A DNA stretch of 64,000 bases, taken from contig NC_092033.1 in the NCBI RefSeq assembly GCF_042242105.1, forward strand, positions 504,408-568,407, in the 5' to 3' direction. The stretch comes from Pempheris klunzingeri. Lineage: Eukaryota; Chordata; Actinopteri; Acropomatiformes; Pempheridae. The position numbers and the translations under genes are program-made. Below the pieces are notes generated by a model. It was given only the letters and a program-made list of their open reading frames with translations, was not told the origin of the DNA and searched no databases. This document shows, piece by piece, positions 8,755-49,359 of this stretch (position 1 is its first letter; each line of letters opens with the position of its first letter).

Positions 8755-17189
<8,435 letters not shown>

Positions 17190-25907: not shown

Positions 25908-28900
25908 TCACGTCGTTTCGGTCGAAGCCGGCAGGGTTTTGAATCTGTCCGTCGCTCTGTGAGTGCTGAGCAGCGTCAGTCCCATCGAGTCCACGCTGTC
26001 CTCCAGACCGTCGGCGCTGTCGATGTCCACCGTGTAGTCGTTGGCCTGAGACACAAAACACACCCTGTTTCTAAACCTGGACCAGACCGTTACTCTGACA
26101 GCATGAGGGAAAGGATCCCTGCAGAGAGAGACCTGGAAGATCCTTTTGGTTTAACCACAAACAGCACACACACCAGACTACATTCACTAAAACAGGGATT
26201 TTAGAGAACAGGACACAGGAGCTGCTGCTCTGCTGCTGCCTCCATCAGTCAGTGTGTTTGTGTTGTTGTGAGACTTTGGTGTTTTAAAGGATCAGTTCAG
26301 CTCCAACACAATATCTGTGTATCACACAGTAACACAGACACACTGACTGATGGAGGCAGCAGCAGAGCAGCAGCTCCTGTGTCCTGTTCTCTAAAATCCC
26401 TGTTTTAGTGAATGTAGTCTGGTGTGTGTGCTGTTTGTGGTTAAACCAAAAGGATCTTCCAGGTCTCTCTCTGTAGGGATCCTTTCCATGATGCTGTCAC
26501 ACACTTAGAATAACACTCTGAGCCTGTCAGTGGATCAAACAAGCTCTTTTAGTGGACCTACTGTGATCTCCTGGACCAGTTCCAACACTTTTAGTACCCT
26601 CCAGTCATTCAGACAGGACATGGACAGAGAGGACTCAGGGTTAGAAACACTTGGTGTGTTCTGACTTTAACACATTTAAATTTGACTGTTAGAGCAACAC
26701 AATGGTCCATGAGGTGCTTTTTCTTGTTTAATTCATGGTGAGACAGCTTTTATGTAAAACAAGCCAACATCAATAAGAAGCTATAATTTAGGTTTTTTTG
26801 AATGGAGTCTGGTGCTGTTCTCTGTATTTACCAGCTGCAGTGAGGCCAGCAGGTATTTGCAGGCCTCGAAGTTATCCAGACCGGCCACGATGGAGGAGAA
26901 AGACCTGCGCTGACCAACGGCGCTCAGCGCTCCGACGATCCTGTCGCCGTAATCGTGGATGTCGAACACGGCACGCTGCTCCTGGAAACAGGAAGTGACA
27001 CGAACACAAGCGTCAGCACGTGAACAGGAAGCTCAGGACTGATGATGGTCCAGTGTTTTACCTGCAGCAGCAGCTCAGGTCTGATCTGGTCCTCCCAGTC
27101 CCTGACCCTCTGAGACAGGGCCGTCTCCTGAGTGTAGCCTCGGCTGTTCACCACCAGCTGATCCTGAACACACACACACACACACTTTCAATTAGCTGTT
27201 ATATCGTGCTCTTCAAAACAAACCAGACTACATTCACAACAAACAGGGATTTTAAGATCACAGAACACAGGAGGTAATGATCTACTTCTGCCCCGTTAGT
27301 TAGTTAGTTTGTGTTACTGTGTGACTTTAGTGTGTTACGATGTTGGTAGAGATCCAAACCAACCCTTTAAACCACCAAACCACCACAGAAATTAGAGCAG
27401 CAGCTCCTGTGTCCTGTTCTCTAAAATCCCTGTTTTAGTGAATGTAGTCTGGTGTGTGTGCTGTTTGTGGTTAAACCAAAAGGATCTTCCAGGTCTCTCT
27501 CTGTAGGGATCCTTTCCATGATGCTGTCATTTATTCACTGACACACAAATGGACGTACTGATCACTTACCACACGCAGCTTCACCAGATCTTCATAACTC
27601 AGCTCGTCTCTCTGAGCGTCTGCACACACAAAACATTTTCATTTCCCCTCAAGAGGCTTAAGTTCAGAAATAGAGTCGTCACAGCCATTGTTTTAATGTC
27701 TCTAATGTCTCGCGGCATCTTTTTTGGCAGAGTTGGGCTTCCGTACAGACTCATGTCTTCGTACGGCGTTGACCTTTGACCTCACGGCGTCTCTGTCAGA
27801 CTTATTTCCTGTCTTTTCTCGTTATATTTTTAGGAAGTGTGGTTGCTGTGACGTTCTCGTTGACCAACACGTGTGCGTCTCCTCGTCCCTGACCTCAGAC
27901 GAGTGATGTAATAACCGCTGCTGGACGGCAGGTGTGTTCTTACCTGGCGATATGAAGTCTGGTCCTCCGAGCAGCTCAGCCGGGACGTCGACAGGAAACG
28001 CTTCGTGTTCGTTGTCCGAGTTGTCGTCGTCTCCGCCTGTAAAAGATCGTTTCAGACTTTTAGGAATTTATGTTGAAAGCATCGGCAGCTCCAGAGACGC
28101 CTCCTGCTCCCCCACCTCCCCCACAGCCACTCCTTTCAGCTCATGATGTCTCCAGAGACGCCTCCTGCTCCCCCACCTCCCCCACAGCCACTCCTTTCAG
28201 CTCATGATGTCTCCAGAGACGCCTCCTGCTCCCCCACCTCCCCCACAGCCACTCCTTTCAGCTCATGATGTCTCCAGAGACGCCTCCTGCTCCCCCACCT
28301 CCCCCACAGCCACTCCTTTCAGCTCATGATGTCTCCAGAGACGCCTCCTGCTCCCCCACCTCCCCCACAGCCACTCCTTTCAGCTCATGATGTCTCCAGA
28401 GCGAAAGCAAAACCCTGTTTCCCTTTAAGCGGGGAACGCAAGAGTCTGTAAGAGGTAAAGAAAGGAGCTGAAACTAAAAGGAGCTGAAGTGAGAGTGCTG
28501 AAAGCTGAAGTGTCATTTACATTGTCAGCAGTGAAAGTAGTTGAAGTGTTTCCTCTCTAACCAGCAGCTAAACGCCGGTGAAGTGAAGCGCTAACGGTTA
28601 AGTAGTGAAAGAAGTTGAAGTGTCATGAAATGAAGCGTTGAAAGCAGTTCAGCGGCCACGCTGTCAGTAAACTGAAGCCAGAGGTCGTGTGAAGCGTCAG
28701 CAGTGAACGGAGCTGAAGTGGCTCCAGTGGAGGTGAGAGGGGCGTGTGCAGGTGTTTCACCCAACAGGTCGGCGCCTCTGAATCCGTCCACAGGCTCCTC
28801 CCCCTGCTGCTGTGGCCCCGCCTCCTCCGGCTGCAGGAGGGTCCTCCTGAGCTCCTCCTCCGAGACGACCACGCCCTGAGTGACATCACAGTACGCATCA

Positions 28901-31900
28901 TCAACCACGCCCTGAGTGACATCACAGTACGCATCATGGAGAGGTGAAGTCATGCAGGAACTTATTCCAGAAGAAATGGAATAAGGTCCTATGGAGAACG
29001 CCAGAGGGGGCGGGACTTCACCTCTATACTGACCCCACCCTGAGTGACATCACAACACATCACACACACACACACACACACACACCTACCGCCTTCCTGT
29101 TGATCCTCTTCCGGGTCTTCAGTCGGTCTTTCATCGTGCTCAAATAAACGTAGTTCAGATCTGAAATTAAAGTCGGATTTCAGCGGAATGGTTTCAGACT
29201 AAAGTTCTCAGATGCTGGAGCTAGCGGTGTTAGCCTGCAGGGTGGTGGAGCTAGCGGTGTTAGCCTGCAGGGTGGTGGAGCTAGCGGTGTTAGCCTGCAG
29301 GGTGGTGGAGCTAGCGGTGTTAGCCTGCAGGGTGGCGGCGCTAGCACTGCTAGCCTCACTCAGCTAAGTTCCTTATTTCAGTCCACTGGTCTAAATTTAA
29401 TCACCGTTGGTTTTCTGTTTATTTTCAGGTTAGCTTGCTGAACTTAGCTTTAGCATGCTGCTAACGTGGCCCCCCCTTTGGAGAGTTTGTGGGCGGGGCC
29501 AGTTCAGGCCTGTGGGAGCTGACCAATCAGAGCAGACTGGGGTCTTAAAGAGACAGGAGCTAAAAAGAAGCTGAACAGAGCAGGATGTAACGTACCGGCA
29601 TGTAAACTAACACGTCTCCTTTCTGACTGATAACCAGACGAGGACCTCACTAAATGCTGAACTGTTCCTTTAAGAGACAGCAGGTGATCGGACAGGTTAC
29701 CTGTAAACTTGGGTCCATTTTTTAACTTGTGCTCCGGAGGATCGACTGCAACAAAAACAAACGGTTTCAGTTCATTGACAGTAAAAACCAGCGTGGTGTC
29801 ACAGTCAGCTGATCAGACGGAGCCTTTAAACTGTTCCAGGATCTGAAGTGGGAACATTTGAGCTTTTCCTGAGTTTGGATCATATAAAGTGAATATTTTT
29901 GGGTTTCTGATGATCTGAGGGACAAACTGAGCCGATGATGAGCTCTCTGTGAGAGGTCGTCTAGTGGAACAGTGATTCACACTAATGTAAAAGCTTCTCA
30001 CAGGTTCCTCTGAACCAGCTCCTGAAGTCCTGGAGCGAAGCGCCGTGTTTCCGTTTCCTCTTCCCGCCGTCGTCCAGGCCGTCGGGGACCTTGTAGCATT
30101 TTCCTACGAAGGAAACACGACACGGTGAGCGAAGGCAGCGACTCCACGTCTGATGAACACCTGAGCGACGGCGGCTCACCCGCTCTGAAGGGTTTATCCC
30201 CCCCGAGGACGGCGTACGGGTCGTGGAGCGTCCAGACATTCACCTGAAACAACCAGAGAGCCGGTTCATCATCCTCAGGTGAGACAAACCTCATCACGTA
30301 ACATTTCACTGGATATTTCTGAACGTACGGCCGGCGGCGCCTCGTCCGTCCTCCTCAGTTTGTCGTCTTCGACCTGCCGACGCTCTCGGATCATCCTGCC
30401 CTCACTCAGAGCCTGACACACACGTCGGAGACAAACACTCAGATTTAAAGGGTCACTCCACTGTTTCTACCCATGATCCTCTCTGTCCACATCCTGGTGC
30501 GGGAATGGCTGGTAGGTAGTAAAAGTGTTGGAACTGGTCCAGTAGATGTGGGACACTGAAACCTTCCAGGACACCTGGAATTAAGTGTCTGATTTCCAAA
30601 GAAGAAAAACATAAATCTACACAGATCACATCATTCTTACCGTTCTATCGCTCTCTGCACACACACCAGACTACATTCAATAAAACAGGGATTTTAGAGC
30701 TGCTGCCTCCATCAGTCAGTGTGTTTGTGTTACTGTGAAACTTTGGTGTTTTAAAGGATCAGTTTGGATCCAACCCAACATCTGTCTGACTCACAGTAAC
30801 ACACACACACACTGACTGATGGAGGCAGCAGCAGCAGAGCAGCAGCTCCTGTGTCCTGTTCTCTAAAATCCCTGTTTTAGTGAATGTAGTCTGGTGTGTG
30901 TGCTGTTTGTGGTTAAACCAAAAGGATCTTCCAGGTCTCTCTCTGTAGGGATCCTTTCCATGATGCTGTCACACACTTAGAATAACACTCTGAGGTGATC
31001 TACTGGACCAGTTCCAACACTTTTACTACCTACCAGTCACTCAGACTCCAGGATGTGGACAGAGAGGATCATGGGGAGAAACAGGGGAGTTCTCCTTTAA
31101 TAAAACCAAACAGTCAGAGAGGGAAAAGTCTGTTTGAGACCTGCTGTCGCTCCACGTGCTCCTCTGGGTCCTGCTCCACCTCCTGCTCCACCTCCATGTT
31201 GTCGTCTATTGGCAGGAACTCGTCTGCAGCATCACCTCCGTTATCTTCAGCCTCAGCCGGAGCATCTGGAGGAAAACAGAGAGACTGAGATCCACATCAA
31301 CTGTTCATCTGGAGGAGAGGGAGTGAATTAACTCACTCTGTCTGAGCATCACAGCCTCGTTTATGTCTTTTTAATCTATGATCAGAACCGACGTCCTTTC
31401 AGAATAAAAGTTTAAATGTTGCGAGCAGTAACATCGAGTTGTAATATTCCAGCTCTGATTTGTTTGTAAAACGACGGCTTCATTTCTCTGATATTAAAAC
31501 TTTTCCTCCTCTGGAAACAGATTTTTCTTGAAATCTTAGTTTTATTTTGGAAAATCTTTCATCATTCTGATGAAATCACGTTTTCTCTGAATATTTAGAC
31601 TTTTTTCTCAAAGTATCAGATTCCCTGTCACGTGTCGCTGCTTCATTTAATTTGTGCTGATAGTTTACAGAATCTTTGACCGAACCGAAGGAACCAAGTC
31701 ATTAAAAGCTGCTTTTTAAAACATTAAACATTAAACTGACACTTTAAACATGTAAAACTTTCCTTCTGTTCTTTAGAGCCAAACGGTTCAAAGTTTCTGA
31801 GTTTTTGGTGGAGTTTTATGGCGTATGAAGCGGCGGGGGTGACGTGTGCGGCGCTGCAGACGGACCTGTGGGCGGCGCTGCAGACGGACCTGTGGGCGGC

Positions 31901-32331
31901 GCTGCAGACGGACCTGTGGGCGGCGCTGCAGACGGACCTGTGGGCGGCGCTGCAGACGGACCTGTGGGCGGCGGTTGGTGCAGACAGTCTGAAGGGAACT
32001 CGTCCAGCCTGCAGGTCGACCCGAACGTGAGGACGATCATGTCCTCGTCTCCTGGGACGAAAACGTTGATCCTGAAGTCCTTCTGACTGCACACGACCTC
32101 CCCTTTAAGACTGACACACAGACGGGATGCACCCGCCCTCATTAAAGGGAAGTTCTGGTGTTTTTAACCACGGCGTGGTACCGACCAATCAGAGGACACC
32201 ATGTGTGCGTGAGCTCAAACTGACCTGATCAGAGGGAACTTCTGCTTCTCGTGGGCTTCAGGAGGAATCAGAGACTCAGGAGGAAGAGGAGCGACGCTCA
32301 CAGACTGAACACCAGACGGAGATCACACACC

Positions 32332-32366
<35 letters not shown>

Positions 32367-33523
32367 AAACTACAGGACAGCTGTTACGGCCCGTCCACAT
32401 CTGTCTCATATAATCATCGCTGTAGTTATTGTACAGTTAGCATTATAGTTACTGTATAGCTAGCGCTAAAGCTAGCATAGCGTTCTAATAACTGTACAGT
32501 TACATATAGTTAGCGTTACAGTTAGCGTTACAGTTAGCGTTACAGTTAGCGTTACAGTTAGCGTTACAGTTAGCATTACAGGTAAACTATAAACTGACTG
32601 TGGTGCTGTCGGCCGTCTGTGAGTGCTCGGAGACGTCGAGGTCCAGAGGAGTGAACTGATGGAGACAAAACAACCTGTTAGTGACTGCCTACGTTACCCA
32701 GAATGCCCTGTGACAGGAGCACAGGACACCGTGTGAAGGAAACATGCAGGAGTTCACTTCCTGTTTCTTACCAGCTCGCCATCATCACCGTCAGCGTCGC
32801 AGCCGCTCGCCGCTCCGTCTGCGTCGCCCTGCTCAGCCGCCGCCTGTTTGTTCCGTCTGTCAGGAGCAGAGAGGAGGAAACCTGAGTCCTGATCAAACAC
32901 ACACTGTGATCCAGACCAGGAGGAGCGGCTCACCTCTTGTTCCTGTCGTTGATGTACTCCAGAGTCTGGTAGACCAGACTGTGCAGGAGCTCCACCTGAA
33001 ACACACACAGCAGCTTTCAATCAGGTTCTCTGTTCACACTGTAACCCTTCTGTGTCCTACAGCAGAGCCAGTATCTTAACCCCGGGTCCTGCTCCTACTC
33101 ATCCTGGTCTCTAAAGGACTGGTAGGTACACACCAGACTGCACTGACAAAAACAGGCATTTTGACACACAGCTGCTGCCTCCATCCGTCAGGGTGGTGTA
33201 AAACAGCGGATCTGTCCTTTAAGGCACCTTCTTGCTGTAGATGCAGGCTGAGCCCTGGATCAGCAGCGCTGCTTCTGCAAAGTTCAGTCTGGTTTTCCCT
33301 CCATCAAACGTGATGCACATCTCATCCAGCTGCAAACACAGAAGAAGAACTCTGATTACTCCACTGATGCGTCAGGTTCTCCTGAACCTTCACCAGAACA
33401 TCGGCGTCTCTTCACCTCCTCCAAATAGTCGTTCAACTCTGACGCCACGTCGATGTCCCAGTTCTTGGTGAGCTCTCTGATTGGCTGCAGCAGGTGAGCG
33501 AATCTGCTCTCAGTGGACTCCAT
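25908..33523 (-). CDS. ncaph2: condensin-2 complex subunit H2
   Basis: Kleisin subunit of condensin II, which compacts mitotic chromosomes in the nucleus. Nineteen coding exons (minus): 33416-33523, 33228-33329, 32934-32995, 32772-32856, 32599-32655, 32225-32304, 31962-32110, 31141-31265, 30329-30412, 30180-30243, 30002-30103, 29701-29745, 29090-29160, 28761-28875, 27944-28036, 27570-27619, 27062-27163, 26832-26981, 25908-26045. All close in phase, giving 593 codons (human 605). The N-terminal kleisin part reads [20 protein letters not shown], with [18 protein letters not shown] following. The middle has the [13 protein letters not shown] motif. The C-terminal winged-helix part has [15 protein letters not shown] and [16 protein letters not shown] 5' noncoding exon probably ends at 34377 and splices to 33561. 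Exon 7 ends in a repeated donor and exon 14 begins at a duplicated acceptor, so short in-frame variants are possible at both. Three introns hold foldback elements. Confidence 0.95.
26095..26650. mobile_element. foldback element in ncaph2 intron 18
   Basis: Left arm AAAGGATCCCTGCAGAGAGA to CAGTCAGTGTGTTTGTGT. The right arm is its inverse, extended by the outer ladder to about 26650. The inner stem is about 190 bp, with AGGATCAGTTCAGCTCCAAC in the loop. It fills most of the 786-bp intron. Confidence 0.85.
27164..27183. repeat. (CA)n tract before ncaph2 exon 17
   Basis: On the minus strand a short (TG)n run ends TGTTCAG at the acceptor of exon 17 (exon starts at 27163). Confidence 0.8.
27215..27530. 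mobile_element. foldback element in ncaph2 intron 16
   Basis: Right arm well preserved (TCCTGTGTCCTGTTCTCTAA to CCTTTCCATGATGCTGTC). The left arm is short and diverged (CCAGACTACATTCACAACAA). Confidence 0.78.
28082..28400. repeat. 62-bp minisatellite, 5 copies
   Basis: Five almost identical units beginning CTCCAGAGACGCCTCCTGCT lie in ncaph2 intron 14, starting about 46 bp before exon 15 in transcript direction. They are C-rich on the plus strand, so purine-rich in the transcript. Confidence 0.95.
28871..28942. repeat. 36-bp duplication of a splice acceptor
   Basis: Two tandem copies of a 36-bp unit (28871-28906, 28907-28942) starting ACGCCCTGAGTGACATCACA. Each includes, on the minus strand, GTCACTCAG followed by GGCGTGGT, the acceptor and first codons of ncaph2 exon 14. 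Exon starts are possible at 28875 and 28911. The distal one adds [12 protein letters not shown] without a stop. A degenerate third copy lies near 29036-29055. Confidence 0.9.
29062..29087. repeat. (CA)n tract after ncaph2 exon 13
   Basis: On the minus strand the donor of exon 13 reads GTAGGTGTGTGTG, so the intron opens with the (TG)n run itself. Confidence 0.85.
29218..29346. repeat. 30-bp repeat, 4 copies
   Basis: Units GGAGCTAGCGGTGTTAGCCT plus ten bases, in ncaph2 intron 12. Confidence 0.93.
30446..31099. mobile_element. foldback element, both outer ends present
   Basis: Outer ends TAAAGGGTCACTCC (30446-30459) and GGAGTTCTCCTTTA (31086-31099), with T and A outside giving TTAA at each end. 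Inside are the nested arms of the family. It lies in ncaph2 intron 8, ending only about 40 bp from exon 8 (31141). This is the best copy for defining the element's limits. Confidence 0.87.
31851..31972. repeat. 24-bp minisatellite on ncaph2 exon 7 donor
   Basis: Five units around GCGGCGCTGCAGACGGACCT. On the minus strand each contains ACAG followed by GTCCGT, a usable donor. Exon ends are possible at 31962, 31938, 31914, 31890 and 31866. Intron phase is the same for all, and each step inserts GPSAAPPT at about residue 214. If no donor is used the frame runs on to [10 protein letters not shown] and a stop. Confidence 0.93.
32332..32366. repeat. (ATC)n microsatellite
   Basis: About eleven ATC units in ncaph2 intron 5. 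Confidence 0.95.
32495..32582. repeat. 12-bp GTTAGCGTTACA repeat
   Basis: About seven tandem units in ncaph2 intron 5, ending next to exon 5. Confidence 0.9.
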
Positions 33524-34376
33524 GACGGCGGCGCTGTGAGCCGAGGGGGGGAGACTCCACCCTGGTCAAAGCAACGAAACATCAGTGCATGTTTGTTATT
33601 TCACCTAAAAGATGAGGACAAACTGATCCTGATAAAGTGATTTCATGTTAACTACTTTATAAACTAGTGGTCTGATCAGTGGCACTAGGGACCACTGGAA
33701 TAATACAGTGAGTGAAGTACTTCACATTTGGACCTGAGCAGGTGAGTTTAGGACAGATGACGCTACAGGCTGAGAGCCAATATTAATCAATAAGTTATCA
33801 ATAACATTGTGTTTGTATGTTAACCTGATGTTGACTGTTATTTCTACGAGCTAACCGCCAAACTCCATTCAAAAATCTGACACTTTTAGTAAACTACTGT
33901 CAGTAAACTTCATGTGAGACTCCTGCCAACTAGTTGACTTCTAACTTTTACCGATTTGTTTCCACTTTGTTCCGGTAACATCAACATTTAAATCTCCGGT
34001 TGTTTCTCTGACTTTGAGCAGCGATTAACGTTTAACAGCCACTTTTATGGTACAACAGCAGCGGAAGACTGAAGGAAACATTCAAAGCTGAACGCAGAAA
34101 ATACAACAGAGCCTCATGCCGATTAGTTAAATGTGTTAACTAGTCTCCTGTCAGATGGGTAGTTAACCTTAAACCGACATCGAGCACACAACGGACTGAA
34201 TTTATCACTAAATTCTGCTGAAGGTCTCCTCAATACAAACTCAGGCTCTGTGGGCTGGAACACGTTAACAGTTATATTTACCCACTGAGCTGCTGGTGGA
34301 TAATATTTAACTAACATTTGAGTTATGGTGACGTGAAGATGCTTCAGGAGAGAAGATATTTAAAAAAAAACCTCAC

Positions 34377-34500
34377 CGTGATGAAGAAGAGCAGCAGCTA
34401 ACAGCTAACAGCTAAATGTTATGTAGCAGTTAGCTAACAGTCAAACAACCCGCGCAACTTTCTTCTTCGCTGGTTTCACGTCCCGCCTTCTTCTTCTTCT
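34377..34500 (-). promoter_or_regulatory. ncaph2 5' noncoding exon and start region
   Basis: On the minus strand ATCACG followed by GTGAGG makes a donor at 34377/34376, after a stretch with CGCGGG and TTCGCTGGTTTCACG. A matching acceptor GACCAG lies at 33562, 38 bp before the ncaph2 start codon. The upstream limit is a guess. Confidence 0.45.
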
Positions 34501-34526
34501 TCTACGTTCACCAGTGAGCGGCAGCC

Positions 34527-34543
34527 GGGCGCCCCCTGGTGTC
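34527..34543 (-). promoter_or_regulatory. CTCF site
   Basis: The minus strand reads GGACACCAGGGGGCGCC, with an exact CACCAGGGGGCGC core. It sits at the ncaph2 start region, between ncaph2 and socs2, and points left. Confidence 0.7.
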
Positions 34544-34549
34544 CCGGAG

Positions 34550-35390
34550 GAGGCTTCCTGTAAACACCGGGGGGAGGAAGTACTCATAAAAATACCATTA
34601 CAGAGTAGAAATACACGTGGACGGTACTGTTACTGTGGAAGACGCCATTTTCTGCTCCTTCCCACGCGTTTATCAGACACCTTTAGTGAGTCCACAGATC
34701 AATAACTAACAACAGACTAGTGTGAAATATTAGCAGATTATAAAGTCATTCACAAGCTGCTGCGATATTAATGACGTCATCCGGAAACGAGTCACTCTGC
34801 ATTAGAAGCACGAAGTATATTTTTATATATTTAGAAATATGCAAACAAAATTACAAAATAAAGATCCTGTGCAGTGGCCTGGTCTTTTCATTTGTTCTTT
34901 TTTCTCTTCATGCCAGATTCCATTCAAAATTCTAGCAATTTAAGATCCTGTCATTAATCAGCTGGTGTACAATCCTGCTTAAACTAAAGTGCTATGTTGT
35001 TTTATCTAATACTGTCCAAAGTTTGATTCTGCAGACCATAAGATAAACATATATTATGTAGTAGCTCGGAGAGAGGAGATAATCAGAACATGTTCTAGGT
35101 AATATGAGCGTGTACTCCTCCCACACTGCACTCAGCAATGGAGAAAACTGCTATTCTCCACCAAACTCAATTCAAAATTCTATTAATTTAAGTTGAACTA
35201 GTGAGTCAGCTGGAGGACAGACGTGCCTACAGGAGAAATGTTCTTCTTCGTGTCCAGCTGCCTGCAGGTACAGGTGAGACCAGCAGAGACAGTCCGCGTC
35301 ATTCATTAAACCACTGCACAGCCTGTTTATGTTCTGGGGGGGTCTGAAGCCCGGATGTGCCCCTGTTTGTACCCGGTAACCCTGCGCGCG
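34550..35390. other. ncaph2-socs2 spacer
   Basis: No exon seen. Contains weakly conserved copies of the CCAAACTCCATTCAAAA motif near 34912 and 35161. Confidence 0.5.
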
Positions 35391-35394
35391 CGTG

Positions 35395-35401
35395 TGTGTC
35401 A

Positions 35402-35432
<31 letters not shown>

Positions 35433-35509
35433 TATCCACCTGTAATTTAAATATATGGAACAGCACCTGAGGGCACAGCCTGTGTGTGTGTGTGTGTGTG
35501 TGTGTGTCT

Positions 35510-35546
<37 letters not shown>

Positions 35547-35847
35547 TATGTGTGTCTCAGTGTGTGTGTCTGTGTGTGTCTCAGTGTGTGTGTGTGTCTC
35601 AGTGTGTGTGTGTCTCAGTGTGTGTGTGTGTCTCAGTGTGTGTGTCTGTGTGTGTCTCAGTGTGTGTGTGTGTGTGTCTCAGTGTGTGTGTGTGTGTGTC
35701 TCAGTGTGTGTGTGTGTGTGTGTCTCAGTGTGTGTGTGTGTCTCAGTGTGTGTGTGTGTGTCTCAGTGTGTCTCAGTGTGTGTGTCTCAGTGTGTGTGTG
35801 TGTGTGTGTGTGTGTGTCTCAGTGTGTGTGTGTGTGTGTGTGTGTCT

Positions 35848-35884
<37 letters not shown>
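35395..35884. repeat. (TG)n with regular TCTCAG breaks
   Basis: Pure (TG)n at 35407-35434, then from about 35480 to 35884 a compound array of (TG)n blocks broken by TCTCAG about twenty times. It ends 40 bp before the STAT-type sites of socs2. Cys/Val-rich open frames are artefacts. Confidence 0.95.
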
Positions 35885-35913
35885 GGACCACCTTAAATCG
35901 CTCCTCGCGGCAC

Positions 35914-35919
35914 CACGTG
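35914..35919. promoter_or_regulatory. CACGTG E-box
   Basis: CCACGTGACC, the USF/MITF/MYC type, just upstream of the paired STAT-type sites. Confidence 0.4.
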
Positions 35920-35925
35920 ACCGTG

Positions 35926-35945
35926 TTCCTGGAAAGTTCCTGGAA
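35926..35945. promoter_or_regulatory. tandem STAT5-type sites upstream of socs2
   Basis: Two identical TTCCTGGAA palindromes (35926-35934 and 35937-35945) stand 11 bp apart, one helical turn. TTCNNNGAA is the STAT5/STAT1/3 consensus, and paired sites can hold STAT5 tetramers. SOCS2 is a known growth-hormone/STAT5 target, so feedback control is a natural reading. Confidence 0.65.
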
Positions 35946-36041
35946 ACGCAGCTTTTGTGTTGATGCTGATGTCGGTTGTCGGTTATCAGGCGGCCCGGGG
36001 ACGCGCTCTGCCCGCAGCACGGTGACGGGCGGACGGACACC

Positions 36042-36083
36042 ATGCTCGGGACGTTCTTCTCTGTCTCCGGGACGCGGGAATAA
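36042..36083 (+). promoter_or_regulatory. socs2 upstream ORF
   Basis: ATG to TAA, 13 residues (MLGTFFSVSGTRE), in the presumed noncoding exon 1. It matters only if transcription starts before it. Confidence 0.3.
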
Positions 36084-36290
36084 ATCGGTGTTTTGTCGTT
36101 TTAACCGTCACGGTGACACATTAACGTTTGGCCGCAGAGGCTCGTTTCTTCGACGGCACCGACCCGCCATTAGGACACGGACCCGGACTGAGGCACCGAG
36201 ACCCGGACTGAGGCACCGAGACCCGGACTGAGGACGCAGACCTCCGTGGGCTCCGGTTCCGCGGGTCTGGACCGGACTGTCACCGCGGAC

Positions 36291-36338
36291 ATGTCGGGCT
36301 GCTGCAGCCGGAGGGCGGACTGCTGTCGCCGGTTCTGA
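36291..36338 (+). promoter_or_regulatory. socs2 upstream ORF, cysteine-rich
   Basis: ATG to TGA, 15 residues MSGCCSRRADCCRRF, with four cysteines in two pairs. It lies 42 bp before the exon 1 donor. A G follows the ATG context only weakly, so leaky scanning is likely. Confidence 0.35.
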
Positions 36339-36796
36339 TCCGGGCTAGCTAGCGGCTAGCTCCGACGGGGACCCTCTCAGGTACGGCGGCGGTCTGTGTG
36401 CTCCCCCCACGCTCAGCCTCACCTGGGGGGCTCTTCCTCATGTGACGGACAGGTGAGGCGGGCCGAGACACCTGTGCTGCTCCTCGGGTTGTCCCACAGC
36501 GGCACACTGTGCCAAACTCCATTAATAATTTTAGCAATTTAACGTTTAACCTGCGGTCTGAACCTGCTGGAAAATAAAGTGTCAACATTTTGTTTTTACA
36601 ACAGCCGAGTTCTAGTTTCTGCAGATCAGAGGAAACTCACCTGGAGTCTGGACTTAGAAAGAGATGATTCATAAAACATGATTATCAGGATACCAACTGA
36701 GACTCTGTTTGGCCTCGACTGTCCTCTAACGTGTAAACAGCCAACAAATAAGAGTCAGTGTTTTCTGTTCTTCACCCTCTGCTCTATAGCAACACT

Positions 36797-36860
36797 ATCT
36801 ATCTATCTATAGATATATATATATAGATAGATAGATATAATATAATACAGATATACAGAA
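36797..36860. repeat. (TATC)/(TATA) microsatellite
   Basis: TATCTATCTATC then a TATATA run and its inverse ATAGATAGATAG, which can fold as a hairpin. It is in socs2 intron 1. Confidence 0.85.
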
Positions 36861-37824
36861 AGATGTTATTTACTTATTTACGGTGTGAAACACAATAAAG
36901 CACTTATACAGTTGGCTGGACTTCAATTAGTCTCTTTCCCACCAAATCCCATCCAAAAGTCTGGTCATTTAACATCTGCCTGATGTGTAAATATATCAGA
37001 ACATTAATTTACAGTCTTCTCTCAAATTCAGCCCACAAAGAAGAAGTGTTTCAGACGCACTGATCAGGTCTCCAGCTGTAAAATGGAGAAACATCCCAGC
37101 TGCGCCAAACTCTGTTCAAAGTTCTTGTAATTTAAGGTCAAATACATTCAGACACTTTATTTTTCTGAATTCCACCTTCAAATGCAGATAATTGCTAAAT
37201 ACATCAAATGGTTTATTACAGTCAGTATTAAGTTTCTGTGCTGTGGCCTGATATTCAATAAGTGTGTTTGTCTGCTATAGAACAGATGAAACTGCTTCCT
37301 TACACCAAATTCTATTCAAAATTCTAGCAATTTAAGGTTCCCCTCGCTTATCAGCTGACACGTTTTTGTTTAGTTCTGGACACAATGAGATGAATATATG
37401 TTCTGTGACAACAACAGACAGTCCAGACTGTCAGCTCCTCTCTAGTTTTTAACTCACATCCACTGTGAACAAATGAACTGTATTAAAACGTCTTGTGAAC
37501 CTTTTTGTCCTGACAGCGTCGGCTTTCACTTGACTTTTATTGTTGAACGTTTTCTCAGTTAATTGTTTGGTCGCTAAAATGTAAGAAAACGGTTAAAAAC
37601 AGATTTGAGGTTCAGAGAACAGCTGAGAGTCAGAGGCTGTTTGATGAATCAGTGAAGAGAGAAGTTCCCAGTGTGATGCAGAACGTAGCAGAAGAAGGGC
37701 CGAGGTGGTCGTCTGGAGGAGTTCCTGCTGAGAGCAGAGCCGTGGGGTTACATGAGGTGAATGGGTTAGTCACAGTGTTGAAGCTGTTCACGCTGTTTTC
37801 ATGGATTTTATTTATTTCCAGGAC

Positions 37825-37844
37825 TGCCCCCCCCCCCCCCCCCC
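37825..37844. repeat. poly(C) tract as socs2 acceptor tract
   Basis: About 20 C directly before AG at 37845-37846, serving as the polypyrimidine tract of the first coding exon. Confidence 0.85.
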
Positions 37845-37856
37845 AGACCTCGTCAC

Positions 37857-37877
37857 ATGTCTGAGCTGAGGGCCTAA
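37857..37877 (+). promoter_or_regulatory. socs2 short upstream ORF
   Basis: ATG to TAA, MSELRA, 27 bases before the main start codon and out of frame with it. Such a short leader frame near the start could lower or tune translation. Confidence 0.45.
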
Positions 37878-37904
37878 GACTAGGCCAAAGCTTGGATCTG
37901 TCCA

Positions 37905-38031
37905 ATGACCTGCCAGTCCTCCGAGTCCACACAAACCATAGAGAGCAACAGACGAGCCGACAACAACTCCAGGACTGTGGAATCAGACGAGAGGCGCATC
38001 GCCTCAGCCATGAAGGACCTGAGGAACACCG

Positions 38032-38076
<45 letters not shown>

Positions 38077-39052
38077 TTAGACAGAGGCTAAAACAGAATA
38101 TAAGATAGAAGAAGAAGAATGTGCCTGATACCCATAACAGCCGTTCTATCGCTCTCTGCACACACACCAGACTACATTCACTAAAACAGGGATTTTAGAG
38201 AACAGGACACAGGAGCTGCTGCCTCCATCAGTCAGTGTGGTGGTGTTACTGTGTGACTTTGATGTTTTAAAGGGTTAATTTAGATCCAACAGAATAATTG
38301 TGTAACTCACAGTAACACAAACACACTGACTGATGGAGGCAGCAGCTCCTGAGTCCTGTTCTCTAAAATCCCTGTTTTAGTGAATGTAGTCTGGTGTGTG
38401 TGCTGTTTGTGGTTAAACCAAAAGGATCTTACTGGATCTCTTACTGGATCTCTGTATGGATTCCAGCACTCATTCAGGGCACAGACAGGACCGGGGTTAA
38501 AACCACCGCAGTGACCCTTTAATCGGTCTTGCTATTTAAAGGTGCTAACTGCCCCTCTGTGTGCTCTCAGGTTGGTACTGGGGCAGTCTGACCGCTAACG
38601 AGGCCAAAGAGATCCTCCAGGACGCCTCGGAGGGCACCTTCCTGGTGCGGGACAGCTCTCAGCGGGACTACCTGTTCACCATCTCCGCCATGACGTCGGC
38701 GGGTCCCACCAACCTGCGGATCGAGTACAAACACGGCAAATTCAAGCTGGACTCGGTGGTCCTGGTGAAGCCGAAGCTGAAGCAGTTCGACAGCGTGGTG
38801 CACCTGGTGGAGCACTACGTCCGCCTGTCCAGGACCGGAGACAAGGCGGCCGCGTCCAACTCTACACCCGCGGCGGCGGCGGCGCCCAACGGCACCGTGC
38901 AGCTGCTGCTCACCAGGCCGGTGTACACCGCCACGCCGCCGCTGCAGCACCTCTGCCGCATCGCCATCAACCGCAGGACGCGGCGGGTTCAGGACCTGCC
39001 GCTGCCCAACAGACTGAAGGACTACCTGACGGACTACTCCTACCACGTGTAG
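37905..39052 (+). CDS. socs2: suppressor of cytokine signalling 2
   Basis: Two coding exons, 37905-38031 and 38571-39052, joined inside a glycine codon; 202 residues (human 198). SOCS2 binds phosphotyrosine on receptors such as the growth-hormone receptor and recruits a Cullin5 ubiquitin ligase in the cytoplasm. The SH2 domain begins GWYWGSLTANEAKEIL (residue 43) with the phosphotyrosine arginine in FLVRDSS (R69) and GPTNLRIEYKHGKF. The C-terminal SOCS box has LQHLCRIAINRR and the Cul5 box LPLPNRLKDYL. Between them is an alanine-rich insert (about residues 133-152, GCG-type codons) not seen in mammals. The intron opens GTGAGT and runs straight into (GT)n. cradd follows downstream in the same direction, as in human. 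Confidence 0.97.
38036..38074. repeat. (GT)n at socs2 intron 2 start
   Basis: Begins within the donor GTGAGTGTGTGTG of the first coding exon. Confidence 0.9.
38140..38440. mobile_element. foldback element in socs2 intron
   Basis: CACACACCAGACTACATTCA to GCTGCCTCCATCAGTCAGTG and the inverse arm ending GGTTAAACCAAAAGGATCTT. It occupies more than half of the 539-bp intron. Confidence 0.83.
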
Positions 39053-39189
39053 GCCGCCTGGAGGAGCACGACGCCCGTCTGACCGCTGACCAATCCCATC
39101 ATGCTTTGCTCCTACCAGGAAGGGGACACGCAATAATCAGACCGGATGCGTCCCGGCTGCAGGACCACAGTGTGGGCTTCAGACACGAC

Positions 39190-39292
39190 CACGCCCCGCT
39201 GGTTAGTCAGCTAGCTGGTTAGCTAGTTAGCTGGTTAGCTGGTTAGCTGGTTAGCTAGTTAGCTAGTTAGCTGGTTAGCTGGCTGTTTAACT
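39190..39292. repeat. TTAGCTGG/TTAGCTAG tandem repeat
   Basis: Eight-base units repeated in the socs2 3' untranslated region. Confidence 0.9.
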
Positions 39293-39350
39293 AGAGCTGA
39301 GGGGGGAAGAGAACAGCACTAATAATTATTCTGATAATTAATCAGCTCTA

Positions 39351-39356
39351 AATAAA
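39351..39356 (+). terminator. socs2 poly(A) signal
   Basis: AATAAA 300 bp after the stop codon, followed by AT- then GT-containing sequence. Confidence 0.6.
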
Positions 39357-39426
39357 ACTGGTTTATTATTTTATCTTCACAGGACACAGAAGCAGTTTTT
39401 GACGTGACTCAAACAAACGTTATCTA

Positions 39427-39488
39427 TTGATCGACTGATCGGCTGATCGACTGATCGGCTGATCGACTGATCGGCTGATCGGCTGATA
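39427..39488. repeat. GATCGACTGATCGGCT repeat
   Basis: Eight-base units GATCGACT and GATCGGCT alternate just past the socs2 poly(A) signal. Confidence 0.9.
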
Positions 39489-39875
39489 GCCTTGAATCTT
39501 TAAACAGCTTTAATGAAACGTTGTTTAGCAGCTCTCTGAGAGTGAAGGAACCTTCGGGGCAGAAATCAGCCGTAACATAAAGCCCTTTAGAACCCAACCT
39601 TTTCCATCTGGCGACGCAGCACACGGAGGCCTCCGATTGGCCGACCGGCAGCCGTGACGGGTTCGGTCGGAGCAGGATGAGGTTTCCTGATCGATGAGCT
39701 GCGTAGAAAACAAACAGTGAACCGACGTCAGAGTCGCTTTAATAAGCCAGAGTTTGACCTCTCTCTTCTGCTAGACTTTGTCCCTGCTGGATGTAGTACT
39801 CTGCAGCTCTGAGCCAATCAGATCACAGCACAACACAGACCCAGTGTCACACCGGGCCGGGTGAACGGTTAAGAC

Positions 39876-40240
39876 CATTATGGAAAGGATCCCTACAGAG
39901 AGAGACCTGGAAGATCCTTTTGGTTTAACCACAAACAGCACACACACCAGACTACATTCACTAAAACAGGGATTTTAGAGAACAGGACACAGGAGCTGCT
40001 GCTCTGCTGCTGCCTCCATCAGTCAGTGTGTTGGTGTTACTGAGTGACTCTGTTCTGTTTTAAAGGGTCAGTCTGTATCTGAACCACTGTGAACCAAAAA
40101 CTACCAAAGTTACAGCAGCAGACCGGCAGCTCCTGTGTTCTGTTAAAATTACAGTTTTTTTAATGGAGTCTGGTGGCTTTGAAGTGAGCGATATAACGGC
40201 TGTTTGAGGTTAAAACTGACAGCATCATGGATCCAAACTG
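39876..40240. mobile_element. foldback element
   Basis: The left arm from ATTATGGAAAGGATCCCTAC is nearly perfect. The right arm is diverged (CAGACCGGCAGCTCCTGTGT, GGAGTCTGGTGG). Confidence 0.8.
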
Positions 40241-42600
40241 AGCCTTTAACACACCAAAGTCACCTTCCTGCAGTTCAGACCTAAAATATGTGAAGAGTTA
40301 CTCAGGTTTAAAAGCACTGATGTTTTCTTTGAGATTCTTACACGAACCAAAAACGTTCTGTCGTTCAGGGGAAGTAGGGAACTCATTTTCAGATTATTCC
40401 AGCACAACCATCACGTAGATACATTTATTCATTTCACGTTAAAACACCTACAGAAACCAGACATGAGGACTCATCTGAACATTCAGTTTTCTTTTTTTTC
40501 TGCTTTCTTCTATGGAGACCATGTAACCAAACTCCATTTAAAAATCTCACGTTTTTAGTTTTCCATGTTAATAATCTTAAACCTGCTGGAGGTTAAAATA
40601 TGAGTCTGTTTTAAAGTGTTTCAAGTGTTAAAGTGTTAAATTCGGCTGATATTTGACCAATCATGTCGCACTTTATTTCAGAATAACTTACATTTTGGCT
40701 CCGGCTGTTTTTATGTGCAACTACAGTTCTGAGGATTTCCTGTTAATCCAGAGTGTTGATCCAGAGTGTTTTCTAAATCTGCACAAACATGGCAGCCAGA
40801 CACGAGGACTCACCTGCTCACAAATACGTTCTCTAAACTTCATCTTTAAACATTTGAATGTTGTCCTCCTCCTGTGTTGAGACCATAGCACCAAACTCCA
40901 TTTAAAAATCTTACATTTTTAGGATTCCATTCGTGAAACCTTTAATGTGGCTCCAGCTCCTCTTGTTCCGACTCCTTTATCCTCGATCCGATCAAACATG
41001 GCCGCCAGACGTAGTGACTCCCGGTCTAAGAGTCAAACTAAACTCGAAGCCGCTTCTGTTCATCTTCTTCTTCATCAGCTCCTCTCAGCAAACATTCAGG
41101 TTCCTGCTCCTCCTCCGTCAGGCTCCGTGTCGGATCCACACTGTGGTCGCAGCAGCTCTGATGTGTCCACTCAGAAGGCCAATGATGGGGGGGGGGGGGG
41201 ATAAATAAAGGAGTAAATCTGTCCTGGTGAACATGAGCAGGACCACGGCTGCAGATCTTTGGACATGTCGCAGCTCTCGCAGGCCGTCTGGTTTCTACAT
41301 ATTTATTGATGGTGTCGCACTGTGTTTTCTGGTACCTGTTTTTTTGTAAAGAAGCTGCACAGACGGAGTCCGTCGCTCTGCAGCTCTGCCTCTGTACCCA
41401 CGAGACGAATAAAGGTTTTATATGGTGCTTCATCGTGGGGCTGCCGGCTTTTATTCCTAAACATCCCTTTATTCATCAGCAGGGTTTAAAGTTTGTCTTA
41501 GTGGAATGTGGATCTGCAGTATGTATTACTCTGTCCTGTGAGGTCCGATCATCAGGGATGATGGAAATATAAATGACATCCAGACAGTTTAACAGGTCCT
41601 TCTAGGAGAAACCTACGATCTCCATTCAAAAATCTTAGTATTTTAGGTTTGTTCTTTCATCTGTCGGTACAAACACCAAGCACTCAACAAAACTAAACAC
41701 CTTTAGTTATTCTAGTCAATTCGGCACAGATTTGATCTATCAAGTAAAAGTATATTAAATAAAAACATTAACTTTTACACTGGGTCACTGATGATAGCGA
41801 GAAGCTGCCAGGAGAAAACTGTAATATTTAAATCATCAGTGAAATCAGTTGTCACTAAGTCTGATTAATTCTACTTGTCACCACACGGTTGGTTGTCTAC
41901 TGTAAGGAAACAACAGAGCCGAACTCCATAGAGAAATGTGTCCATTTAAGGAATCATAACATAACAACCTTTAACAACAGGTAACTCTTACCGTAGTGAA
42001 AGCCACTCTAGCAGGAGCTCATGGTGTCTTTGATGTGATGTTACAGCCCTTTACTGTCTGCTGTTTTCCTCCTGTGGGTACCTGCTGCTCGGTGTGTTAA
42101 ATGTCTGGAGTTCCTGCTGATGTCTGACAGTCTTCAGCCTCAGCACGTCCACTGAGGACCACTCAGCCAAACTCCATTGAAAATCTTTCGGTTTTAAGTT
42201 TCGTCTCTTGTCGTTAACTATAATCACTTAATGAAACATTGAAGTATGAGTCTGCTGGATCTGTTTGATGCTTCTAGTAAATTCGGGATATATTTCAACC
42301 ACCAAATAACTTTAATAACTAACTTAATTTTAGCATTAGCATATGCTGCTAGTTGATTCCCACCATTTCAAAAGAGGTACTCGGTGCAAAAGGTTTTATT
42401 AAAACTGGTATTACCTGCTGTATTACCTGCCGAGCTGAAGAGCGCTCTGTAATGATTAACTAAGTTAAAAAAGTTAAACACTAACTAAAGACTAGAGGAT
42501 GTTTAGGCGTTCTGACAGTTAGAAAACCTTGGTTCCGCCGACACGTTTCCAGTCGGACATAATAACACAGGGGACAGGGTAGTTGTCCGGGCAAGTAGCG
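40241..42600. other. socs2-cradd spacer
   Basis: No exon seen. Degenerate copies of CCAAACTCCATTCAAAA lie near 40527, 40891, 41618, 41925 and 42169. One 13-G run near 41187-41200. Confidence 0.5.
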
Positions 42601-42688
42601 ACTAGTTGTCACGGCTTTAAACCAGGTTGGTTGGTTAAGGGATAACTAGTATGGTTTAGTGACGGGACAGCGGCCGTCGGCTCCCTAA

Positions 42689-45600
42689 ATGGACCCGGAG
42701 CACCGAGCCCTGCTGCGGACACACCGGCTGCAGCTGTCCGGGCAGCTGCTGGTCAGCGACACCATCGTTCCGTTTCTGTTCCAGGAGGACATTTTAACGG
42801 AGGCTCAGGTGCAGGTGATCGAGTCCCAGCCGACGGACCGGCAGAAGAGCCTGAAGCTGCTGGAGCTGCTGCCCGGACGGGGGCCCCGGGCCTTCGGCTC
42901 CTTCCTGCGGGCTCTGGAGGACTTCAGCTGGGTCCGAGACTGGCTGCTGCTGGAGCTCCAGACCAGACCCGGAACCAGCTCCACAGGTGAGCCCGGACAC
43001 ACCTGGTGTCGGCAGGTAGTCCACCTGGGGCTGAGGAGCATCACTGGTCCAGGTCCAGATCAAAAACCACCTTTAAAGCTGGACCGGATCATCACAGGGG
43101 CTCATTGAAGTGAACTCATGTAAACCACTTTAATGATGACCTGATCACTACATGATCACTAACTGATCACTGCCTGATCACTACATGATCACTGCCTGAT
43201 CACTAACTGATCACTAACTGATCGCTGCCTGATCACTACATGATCACTGCCTGATCACTAACTGATCACTAACTGATCGCTACCCGATCACTAACTGATC
43301 ACTAACTGATCACTGCCTGATCACTTACTGATCACTACCTGATCACTACCTGATCACTGCCTGATCACTAACTGATCACTACCTGATCACTAACTAGTTC
43401 TACGTTGATGATGCTTTTCTATTTCTATCTCTGTCTTTAACGTCTTAATCAATAAACCTGCTGATTGATTGTGTTTGAGAACTTTGAGGCGATTAAATCA
43501 GAAGTTTAAGACTTTAATCCAAAACCTGAGATTAACTTTAGTCCACATGGAACCAGAACTGGAGGTTTTTAGTGGAACAACGAAACCCTCAGTGGGATTT
43601 TACAGCCGGGACCTCCTCCTCCCCCCTCCTCAGTCCTCTCCCTCCTCCCTCCTCCCTCCTCAGTCCTCTCCCTCCTCCCTCCTCCCTCCTCAGTCCTCTC
43701 CCTCCTCCCTCCTCCTCCTCCCCCTTTTATTGCCTCCTGCTTTCCAGGAATCTTGGCAGCAGCAGCGCCTGTGTTAAAGCTGCAGAGCCCTGTTATTACC
43801 CCCCCTCCAACCCCCCCCACTCTCACAGTACTTCTACTACATACATTAAAACGTCCTCTGATTGGTCGGTATCAGTCTATAAAGAAGCGTCCTCTGATTG
43901 GTCGGTATCAGTCTATAAAGAAGCGTCCTCTGATTGGTCGGTATCAGTCTATAAAGAAGCGTCCTCTGATTGGTCGGTATCAGTCTATAAAGAAGCGTCC
44001 TCTGATTGGTCGGTATCAGTCTATAAAGAAGCGTCCTCTGATTGGTCGGTATCAGTCTGTGTAAAGAAGCGTCCTCTGATTGGTCGGTATCAGTCTATAA
44101 AGAAGCGTCCTCTGATTGGTCGGTATCAGTCTGTGTAAAGAAGCGTCCTCTGATTGGTCGGTATCAGTCTGTATAAAGAAGCGTCCTCTGATTGGTCGGT
44201 ATCAGTCTGTATAAAGAAGCGTCCTCTGATTGGTCGGTATCAGTCTGTATAAAGAAGCGTCCTCTGATTGGTCGGTATCAGTCTATAAAGAAGCGTCCTC
44301 TGATTGGTCGGTATCAGTCTATAAAGAAGCGTCCTCTGATTGGTCGGTATCAGTCTGTATAAAGAAGCGTCCTCTGATTGGTCGGTATCAGTCTGTAAAG
44401 AAGCGTCCTCTGATTGGTCGGTATCAGTCTGTATAAAGAAGCGTCCTCTGATTGGTCGGTATCAGTCTGTATAAAGAAGCGTCCTCTGATTGGTCGGTAT
44501 CAGTCTGTAAAGAAGCGTCTTCTGATTGGTCGGTATCAGTCTGTAAAGAAGCGTCCTCTGATTGGTCGGTATCAGTCTGTATAAAGAAGCGTCCTCTGAT
44601 TGGTCGGTATCAGTCTGTATAAAGAAGCGTCCTCTGATTGGTCGGTATCAGTCTGTATAAAGAAGCGTCCTCTGATTGGTCGGTATCAGTCTGTATAAAG
44701 AAGCGTCCTCTGATTGGTCGGTATCAGTCTGTATAAAGAAGCGTCCTCTGATTGGTCGGTATCAGTCTATAAAGAAGCGTCCTCTGATTGGTCGGTATCA
44801 GTCTATAAAGAAGCGTCCTCTGATTGGTCGGTATCAGTCTGTAAAGAAGCGTCCTCTGATTGGTCGGTATCAGTCTGTATAAAGAAGCGTCCTCTGATTG
44901 GTCGGTATCAGTCTGTATAAAGAAGTGTCCTCTGATTGGTCAGTATCAGTCTGTAAAGAAGCGTCCTCTGATTGGTCGGTATCAGTCTGTAAAGAAGCGT
45001 CCTCTGATTGGTCGGTATCAGTCTGTAAAGAAGCGTCCTCTGATTGGTCGGTATCAGTCTGTAAAGAAGCGTCCTCTGATTGGTCGGTATCAGTCTGTAT
45101 AAAGAAGCGTCCTCTGATTGGTCGGTATCAGTCTATAAAGAAGCGTCCTCTGATTGGTCGGTATCAGTCTGTAAAGAAGCGTCCTCTGATTGGTCGGTAT
45201 CAGTCTGTAAAGAAGCGTCCTCTGATTGGTCAGTATCAGTCTATAAAGAAGCGTCCTCTGATTGGTCGGTATCAGTCTGTAAAGAAGCGTCCTCTGATTG
45301 GTCGGTATCAGTCTGTAAAGAAGCGTCCTCTGATTGGTCGGTATCAGTCTGTAAAGAAGCGTCCTCTGATTGGTCGGTATCAGTCTGTATAAGGAAGCGT
45401 CCTCTGATTGGTCGGTATCAGTCTGTATAAAGAAGCGTCCTCTGATTGGTCGGTATCAGTCTATAAAGAAGCGTCCTCTGATTGGTCGGTATCAGTCTGT
45501 ATAAAGAAGCGTCCTCTGATTGGTCGGTATCAGTCTGTAAAGAAGCGTCCTCTGATTGGTCGGTATCAGTCTGTATAAAGAAGAGTCCTCTGATTGGTCG

Positions 45601-47579: not shown

Positions 47580-48450
47580 GACTCCACCTTCATCCTGCTC
47601 CACCTGTCGGCCCCTCGGGGGTCAAACACGAGTTCTGGAAGAGACAAAACAAGTTTCTTCTGTTTTCTCACATTTTATCGGTTTTTATTTGACAAACAGC
47701 AAATATTTTCTTTCTGTTTTATTGTTCACATTTTAAAAGTTAAAGCTCCAACGATCAGCAGCTGCTTTACTCTGTGGACAGACGCCTCCGCCTCATTGGC
47801 TCACTGAGCCTTGAGCATCATTCGCTGCCAGCAGGTGGACTGAAGAAGAAGAAGAAGAAGAAGAAGAAGAAGAAGAAGCAGCTCCTCTCTGGACTGAAAC
47901 AGGGTGACACAGGGTAACAGCTAACTGTTAGCTTAGCATAGCTCCAGAGGAGTGGACGCAGGTAAACTGACAGCACCTCCTGTTACCATGACTACCACCC
48001 AGCCGGCCGCCATCGTGGCTGAGCGTCGGTGAGCCGAGCCGGACGGGTCCAAACCGGAGGACAGGTCCTGACCCTGTCCTCAGCCGGGACGGTAGACCAG
48101 CAGAGAGAGACAGGAAGAACCTGAAGAGACAAAGAGCAGCGACAGGACGGAGGTCAGAGGTCAGAGGTCAGAGGTCAGACACACGACCTGCTGCTTTTAC
48201 AGGTCTGAACACCTCAGGTGTGATTTTACTGAGCTGCTGCTGATTATTGATTATTTTCAGAATAAATAACTCAAATTTATATCTGCGTGTTTGTTTGTTA
48301 CGTTTAGTTTTTTGAGTAAAAGTTTGGTAAAGTTACACAGAAAGTCTCACAGGATACAGGTTATTGATTAGACACTGGGATCGATCGGTGCTTCATATCG
48401 GCTGATACCCAAAGCCGAAGTATCAGAGTGAAGGTGTGTTTCCACCAAAC
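47580..48450. other. cradd 3' region
   Basis: 3' untranslated and flanking DNA. Includes (GAA)n at about 47846-47878, a GGTCAGA repeat at 48150-48178 and an AATAAA at 48261-48266 that could be the cradd poly(A) signal. Confidence 0.45.
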
Positions 48451-48454
48451 ACAA

Positions 48455-48745
48455 AGCAGACCTGGAAGATCCTTTTGGTTTAACCACAAACAGCACACAC
48501 ACCAGACTACATTCACTAAAACAGGGATTTTAGAGAACAGGACACAGGAGCTGCTGCTCTGCTGCTGCCTCCATCAGTCAGTGTGTTTGTGTTAGTGTGG
48601 TACACAGATGTTGTGGACTGGATTTAAACCAACCCTTTAAATCGCGAACGTTGCACATTAACACAAATAAACTACGTGATGGAGCCGGCAGTAGACCCGC
48701 AACTGCCATGTAAAATGATTGTTTTTGTCAGTGGAGTCTGGTGAG
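48455..48745. mobile_element. foldback element
   Basis: Left arm from ACCTGGAAGATCCTTTTGGT. Right arm strongly diverged, ending GTGGAGTCTGGTGAG. Confidence 0.75.
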
Positions 48746-48795
48746 AAACATAATGACCCAAAATATGTATAATTTGGACCCTATTGTTTATGTCT

Positions 48796-48905
48796 ATCAG
48801 CATCATGGAAAGGATCCCTACAGAGAGAGACCTGGAAGATCCTTTTGGTTTAACCACAAACAGCACACACACCAGACTACATTCACTAAAACAGGGATTT
48901 TAACA
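48796..48905. mobile_element. foldback element, left arm only
   Basis: CAGCATCATGGAAAGGATCC to ACTAAAACAGGGATTTTA, broken off at that point. Confidence 0.75.
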
Positions 48906-49359
48906 GCTGACTCCTGCTGCCTCGATTGGCTGGATTACTTTTGTTATAGTCTGTTTCATGAAGATTGATCTGAACAAATCCTTTAAACATCGGAGTCACA
49001 ACCCAGAATAAGTAAAAAATAAGGCCCAAGTTTAAAAATACCAAAGTTCCCCTTTGAAGTTTGAGTGTTTGGGACCAGACAGAATGAGTGCGTAGAAACG
49101 GCCAGAATCCGTGAGGAGTTTGGTGTGCGTGACAGAGGCTGCAGCAGCTTCAGGTCCTCATGTGAGTTTCTGAGAAAGCCGTGAACACTGAGCTTTATAT
49201 CCGCACGCCTTCCAGGAAACTCTGCAAATATGTGAAAGGCTGACGGGAGACGCCTGCAGACGGTTTACTGTTTGATGAGGAGAGCAGTCACTGAAGTACA
49301 AGTACTGCAAGAAGAAGTACTCTGGTACATGTGAGAGAGCTGCACCGAAGAGCTGTCTG

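Follow-up and report, generated by a model that had tools for sequence, protein, structure and literature searches.

The ncaph2 locus

In the 64,000-nucleotide stretch of DNA analysed here (the window), a complete ncaph2 gene could be modelled (Table 1), in which all 18 introns have GT-AG ends and the predicted protein is uninterrupted. Specifically, the model protein carries both the N- and the C-terminal CAP-H2 domains by which we tested for NCAPH2, the condensin II kleisin (Pfam CNDH2_N, 2e-45; CNDH2_C, 1.4e-49), and it matches the human condensin-2 subunit H2 (PDB 9f5w_H) with an E value of 2.9e-104. At E 0.001, no match to the Pfam middle-domain model CNDH2_M was reported; the human protein nonetheless aligns over residues 215-588. 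The gene identity put forward in the initial annotation is thus backed by the complete model, by the Pfam domains and by the human homologue. The source is probably a fish, judging by the gene and by the genome size.

In addition, all 16 assembly matches map to this locus, and no paralogue was reported among them, so that ncaph2 is single copy within the reach of the assembly search. A search of viral contigs for relatives with the first 86 residues returned nine stretches that fit a pattern, none of them a relative. Near ncaph2, one plus-strand frame (34001-48988) encodes SH2, SOCS box, CARD and transglutaminase N domains, which points to a SOCS/CISH-like gene and others in the neighbourhood.

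Table 1. Features of the ncaph2 locus, in window coordinates; the slash in the donor motif marks the cut
Feature	Positions	Strand	Description	Basis
ncaph2 coding span	25908..33523	-	19 coding exons, 593 aa using the first array donor	model from window DNA
Exon 7 core	31962..32110	-	149 nt if donor 1 is used, reaching 245 nt (end 31866) if donor 5 is	gene model; donor scan
Exon 8	31141..31265	-	acceptor needs a phase-1 donor upstream	gene model
Five 24-bp units GCCGCCCACAGGTCCGTCTGCAGC	31853..31972	-	all identical, each with donor CAG/GTCCGT	TRF; unit found nowhere else
Sixth unit	31829..31852	-	degenerate, without donor	sequence inspection
Donor 1	31961..31962	-	last exon base 31962, GT from 31961	motif; donor scan
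Donor 2	31937..31938	-		motif; donor scan
Donor 3	31913..31914	-		motif; donor scan
Donor 4	31889..31890	-		motif; donor scan
Donor 5	31865..31866	-	nearest the intron	motif; donor scan
36-bp tandem duplication	28868..28937	-	two identical exon 14 acceptors	TRF; acceptor scan

An array of identical 24-bp units at the predicted end of exon 7

The array at the predicted end of exon 7 is reported by TRF at 31844-31973, with a period of 24, 5.4 copies, 99% matches and a score of 253. The motif ACAG/GTCCGT occurs exactly five times on the minus strand within 32200-31700, and the context common to all five donor sites extends over 30 identical bases, 12 before the cut and 18 after it. Five exact 24-bp copies are not a product of chance. 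Both the exact units and their donor motifs were located where the initial annotation had placed five in-frame copies of the exon 7 donor; of the span that it assigned to them, 31851..31972, the right edge holds, while the left edge lies two bases past the last exact unit, which ends at 31853.

When the unit was searched through the 645.9-Mb assembly at up to two mismatches, five matches were obtained, every one inside the ncaph2 array, and the backward control gave none; a dispersed origin of the unit is therefore unsupported. For the array as a whole, one place was reported in this single assembly. None of the six frames of the pure unit contains a stop, so that an open reading frame across the array is weak evidence of donor use, and we rejected it as a sign of coding.

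The exon 7 donor is predicted to lie within the array

Exon 7 is entered in phase 2 (from 32110) and exon 8 requires phase 1 (from 31265). All five array donors leave phase 1, which matches the earlier proposal that the exon 7 end leaves one base of a codon and that every donor of the array satisfies this. An in-frame stop at 31818 ends the open frame of exon 7.

Candidate donors were scored with an approximate vertebrate matrix; the main scan began 20 bases into exon 7, and these first 20 bases were scored separately. The array donors reach +1.25, the seventh weakest value among the 18 donors of the model. CAG/GTCCGT differs from the donor consensus at +3 and +4, and a C at +3 is also found in the ncaph2 donors of exons 5, 6 and 8. 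The remaining phase-1 GT sites before the stop score -3.6 (32088) and -5.7 (31986), and GT sites of other phases within the open part of exon 7 do not exceed -3.3. The separately scored 20 bases contain three GT sites, none of phase 1, with scores from -3.3 to -5.7, and the two phase-1 GC sites found score -6.8 (32091) and -1.2 (32013) when only the remaining matrix positions are counted and no GC penalty is applied. Across exon 7 and intron 7 together, a score of at least +1.2 is attained by the five array sites and by one other GT, at 31337, past the stop.

This vertebrate matrix is weakly selective, as +1.25 is reached by 31 of the 510 other GT sites of the gene span, array donors 2-5 included. 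When the matrix was instead derived from the 17 remaining donors of the model, the array donor scored 3.89; this value is attained by eight of the 510 other GT sites, half of them array donors 2-5. On the scores of the competing phase-1 GT and GC sites, a donor outside the array was rejected. Therefore, as no phase-1 site before the stop other than the array donors has a positive score, the real exon 7 donor very probably lies within the array, and it is there that the DNA very probably places the exon 7 boundary.

Assemblies frequently give tandem repeats a wrong length, and the copy number, or even the modelled end of exon 7, might accordingly be an artefact. The cleanness of the 5.4-copy TRF array argues against such an error, as do the values of -3.6 and below of the alternative phase-1 GT donors, and we regard it as extremely improbable. 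Small introns inside the array, running from a donor to the TCTGCAG of a later unit, were judged unlikely, as pyrimidine tract and branch site are missing. By a folding estimate, donor 1 is less accessible (0.13 unpaired) than donors 2-5 (0.34-0.44); such estimates are unreliable for exact repeats, and little weight is given to this difference.

Predicted consequences for the protein

Translation of the five predicted isoforms gave proteins of 593, 601, 609, 617 and 625 aa for donors 1 to 5, with no internal stop in any of them and with one GPSAAPPT added per step, as the initial annotation had proposed for each further donor. The inserted residues come after residue 214. Human NCAPH2 aligns to the model protein in two stretches, the first ending at residue 188, to which the first part of exon 7 (21 residues) belongs, and the second running from 215 to 588. 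The insertion point thus marks the end of a stretch of low conservation. This bears out the location of the insertion in what had been called the disordered middle of the protein, namely next to residues that do not align to human NCAPH2; as for the disorder itself, we infer it for the linker around the insertion. Selection acts against human tandem splice sites 3, 6 or 9 nt apart, and more so in ordered protein regions, according to the available part of PMC2279118; a weaker selection outside ordered regions fits a tolerance of GPSAAPPT insertions in the ncaph2 linker.

On one point the initial annotation has to be corrected: a change in copy number alters NCAPH2 only to the extent that downstream donors are used. 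With donor 1 (31962) as the sole donor, the array would be intronic and silent, and with donor 5 (31866) as the sole donor it would be an ordinary exonic coding repeat.

One donor or several

The almost exclusive use of a single donor, be it the last, which would make the array an ordinary exonic coding minisatellite, or the first, which would make it a silent intronic repeat, is a possibility that we take seriously, though on balance we do not expect it. Identical donors may still be used unequally according to their position, and among equal duplicated donors the one nearest the intron tends to be preferred. The equal scores of the five sites, which follow from their 30 identical bases of context, speak against a single winner. 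In human IFI6, a 130-aa form is predominant and two downstream repeat units serve as further donors, as far as the available text of PMC4526556 describes it. The evidence on which position would win points both ways, the intron-nearest preference favouring one end of the array and the predominant IFI6 form the other.

In our preferred reading, to which we assign a probability of about 60%, amplification of the exon boundary produced interchangeable donors, more than one of which is used in an unregulated manner, with near-neutral length variation as the outcome. Under this mechanism, a 24-bp segment across the exon 7/intron 7 boundary of ncaph2, 5' splice site included, would have been tandemly amplified to five identical copies, in an event that would be recent or followed by homogenisation. 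U1 snRNP would then be able to bind any of five equal, moderately weak donors, and each choice would keep the frame, adding between zero and four GPSAAPPT to the poorly conserved linker that joins the N- and C-terminal domains. More than one donor would be used stochastically, without regulation, and the resulting variation in protein length would be nearly neutral. Of this reading, the DNA itself displays the array, the gene, the phase and the absence of a credible donor elsewhere, while the use of several donors, the neutrality of the length variation and a variable copy number are inferred. Altogether, the array is best read as a donor-bearing minisatellite that is lineage-specific, probably near-neutral and located in a linker of low conservation.

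Variation in the copy number of the ncaph2 array seems plausible by comparison with a fish gene, as polymorphic, copy-number-variable intronic minisatellites are described for the GH gene of Sparus aurata in the available part of PMC3045353.

A function for the five-fold donor would require either that several weak donors jointly raise U1 occupancy or that the length of exon 7 shifts by tissue or stage, giving a regulated NCAPH2 linker length. The available text of PMC4267661 offers some precedent in GYNNGY tandem donors, a closer-spaced and different kind of site, where tissue regulation is given for about 20% of the alternatively spliced cases in humans and 3% in mice; the same text judges GYNNGY variation to be primarily noise. 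In ncaph2, identical copies carry no readable sign of selection, and all frames of the array are open. We hold a regulated function to be very unlikely.

Comparison with known systems

The nearest parallel to the unregulated multi-donor reading of ncaph2 is human IFI6 (6-16, G1P3), whose minisatellite has a repeat unit of 12 bp. In that gene the repeat units act as alternative splice donors and give rise to several mRNA species and isoforms, as outlined in the accessible part of PMC4526556 (Turri, Cuin and Porter 1995, Nucleic Acids Res 23:1854, as cited there). Judged in the same terms, each of the five exact ncaph2 units, unlike the degenerate sixth, carries a frame-keeping donor motif, and the array overlaps the predicted exon-intron boundary. 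Within what that source describes, the two cases are thus alike in having minisatellite units that bear splice donors; they differ in gene and organism, in the 24-bp length and complete identity of the five ncaph2 units, and in that transcripts are reported for IFI6, where the ncaph2 isoforms are predicted. By this comparison, the ncaph2 array is of a type already known from IFI6/6-16.

Other systems are more distant. In human duplicated genes, boundary minisatellites can change splicing patterns and exonic ones protein length (De Grassi and Ciccarelli 2009, PMC2812944, available part); these are genes in segmental duplications, in which boundary repeats form novel introns, whereas ncaph2 is one locus with an amplified donor. 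Close alternative sites, such as GYNNGY donors and NAGNAG acceptors, yield subtle length variants (excerpts of PMC2279118 and PMC4267661). Sites of this class lie 2-12 nt apart in the portion of PMC2878309 that was available, and the five ncaph2 sites, spaced at 24 nt, fall outside it. In the literature searched, no paper linking NCAPH2 to a minisatellite was found, and the accessible portions of PMC3045353 (fish myostatin-2), PMC3039753 (DDX3Y) and PMC12783039 (earthworm metallothionein) contain no donor-multiplying array.

If several donors are used, ncaph2 would be another natural case, after IFI6, of a minisatellite that multiplies a splice donor in frame, and an illustration of how, in a genome rich in repeats, a conserved chromosome protein can be altered yet not disrupted. 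As all five donors are identical, they would also constitute a natural test of how position by itself settles the choice among equal 5' splice sites. If a single donor is used, the array is an ordinary repeat.

Tandem repeats in the window and in the genome

Tandem repeats make up 22% of the window, with long arrays at 43852-46270 (36-bp unit, 65.5 copies) and at 13482-14866. Two of the 36 ncaph2 junctions lie within arrays, compared with means of 4.2 and 7.9 when the arrays were shifted over the gene span and over the window, respectively. As few as two junctions or fewer in arrays were obtained in 16% (gene span) and 11% (window) of the shifts, and in about 99% of the shifts one or more junctions fell within an array. 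The idea that arrays are drawn to junctions is thus unsupported, the observed number being below both means, and an array on an ncaph2 junction is expected in a window of this repeat content.

Across the whole assembly, clusters of three CAGGTRAG motifs with gaps of 4-34 bases were found at 1198 overlapping places (718 + 480), compared with 159 (51 + 108) for the backward pattern, indicating that donor-like arrays are common in this genome. Among the first of these places, those listed, are minisatellites and an apparent dispersed repeat. Two features of the exon 7 array still stand out after these background tests, namely the presence of five equal donors and a unit whose length is a multiple of three.

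A duplicated acceptor at exon 14 and further repeats in ncaph2

The tandem duplication at exon 14 provides two acceptors with first exon bases at 28911 and 28875, identical over 22 bases of context, both of phase 0 and 12 codons apart, so that use of the upstream one would add 12 in-frame codons. Combining five donors with two acceptors gives ten predicted isoforms, all of them free of internal stops. Within 29085-28830, further open phase-0 acceptors are present, one on the upstream side (29028) and four on the downstream side (between 28857 and 28830); because of these nearby sites, the exon 14 acceptor is assigned with less certainty than the exon 7 donor. The intron 13 stretch 28876-29060, considered as a dispersed element, had one match in the search, namely itself.

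It is conceivable that the five equal exon 7 donors and the two equal exon 14 acceptors, both created by tandem duplication in multiples of three, form a dial with two ends, in which ten open isoforms (593-637 aa) and a copy number that varies between individuals would set the length of the NCAPH2 linker; we consider this doubtful.

Two further repeats were observed in the gene. Exon 8 holds a 12-bp repeat (2.2 copies, 31169-31195) that encodes EVEQEVEQ, so that two neighbouring ncaph2 exons contain tandem repeats. In intron 14, a 61-bp unit is repeated 5.1 times with 100% matches (28089-28401), and this is another very young or homogenised array.
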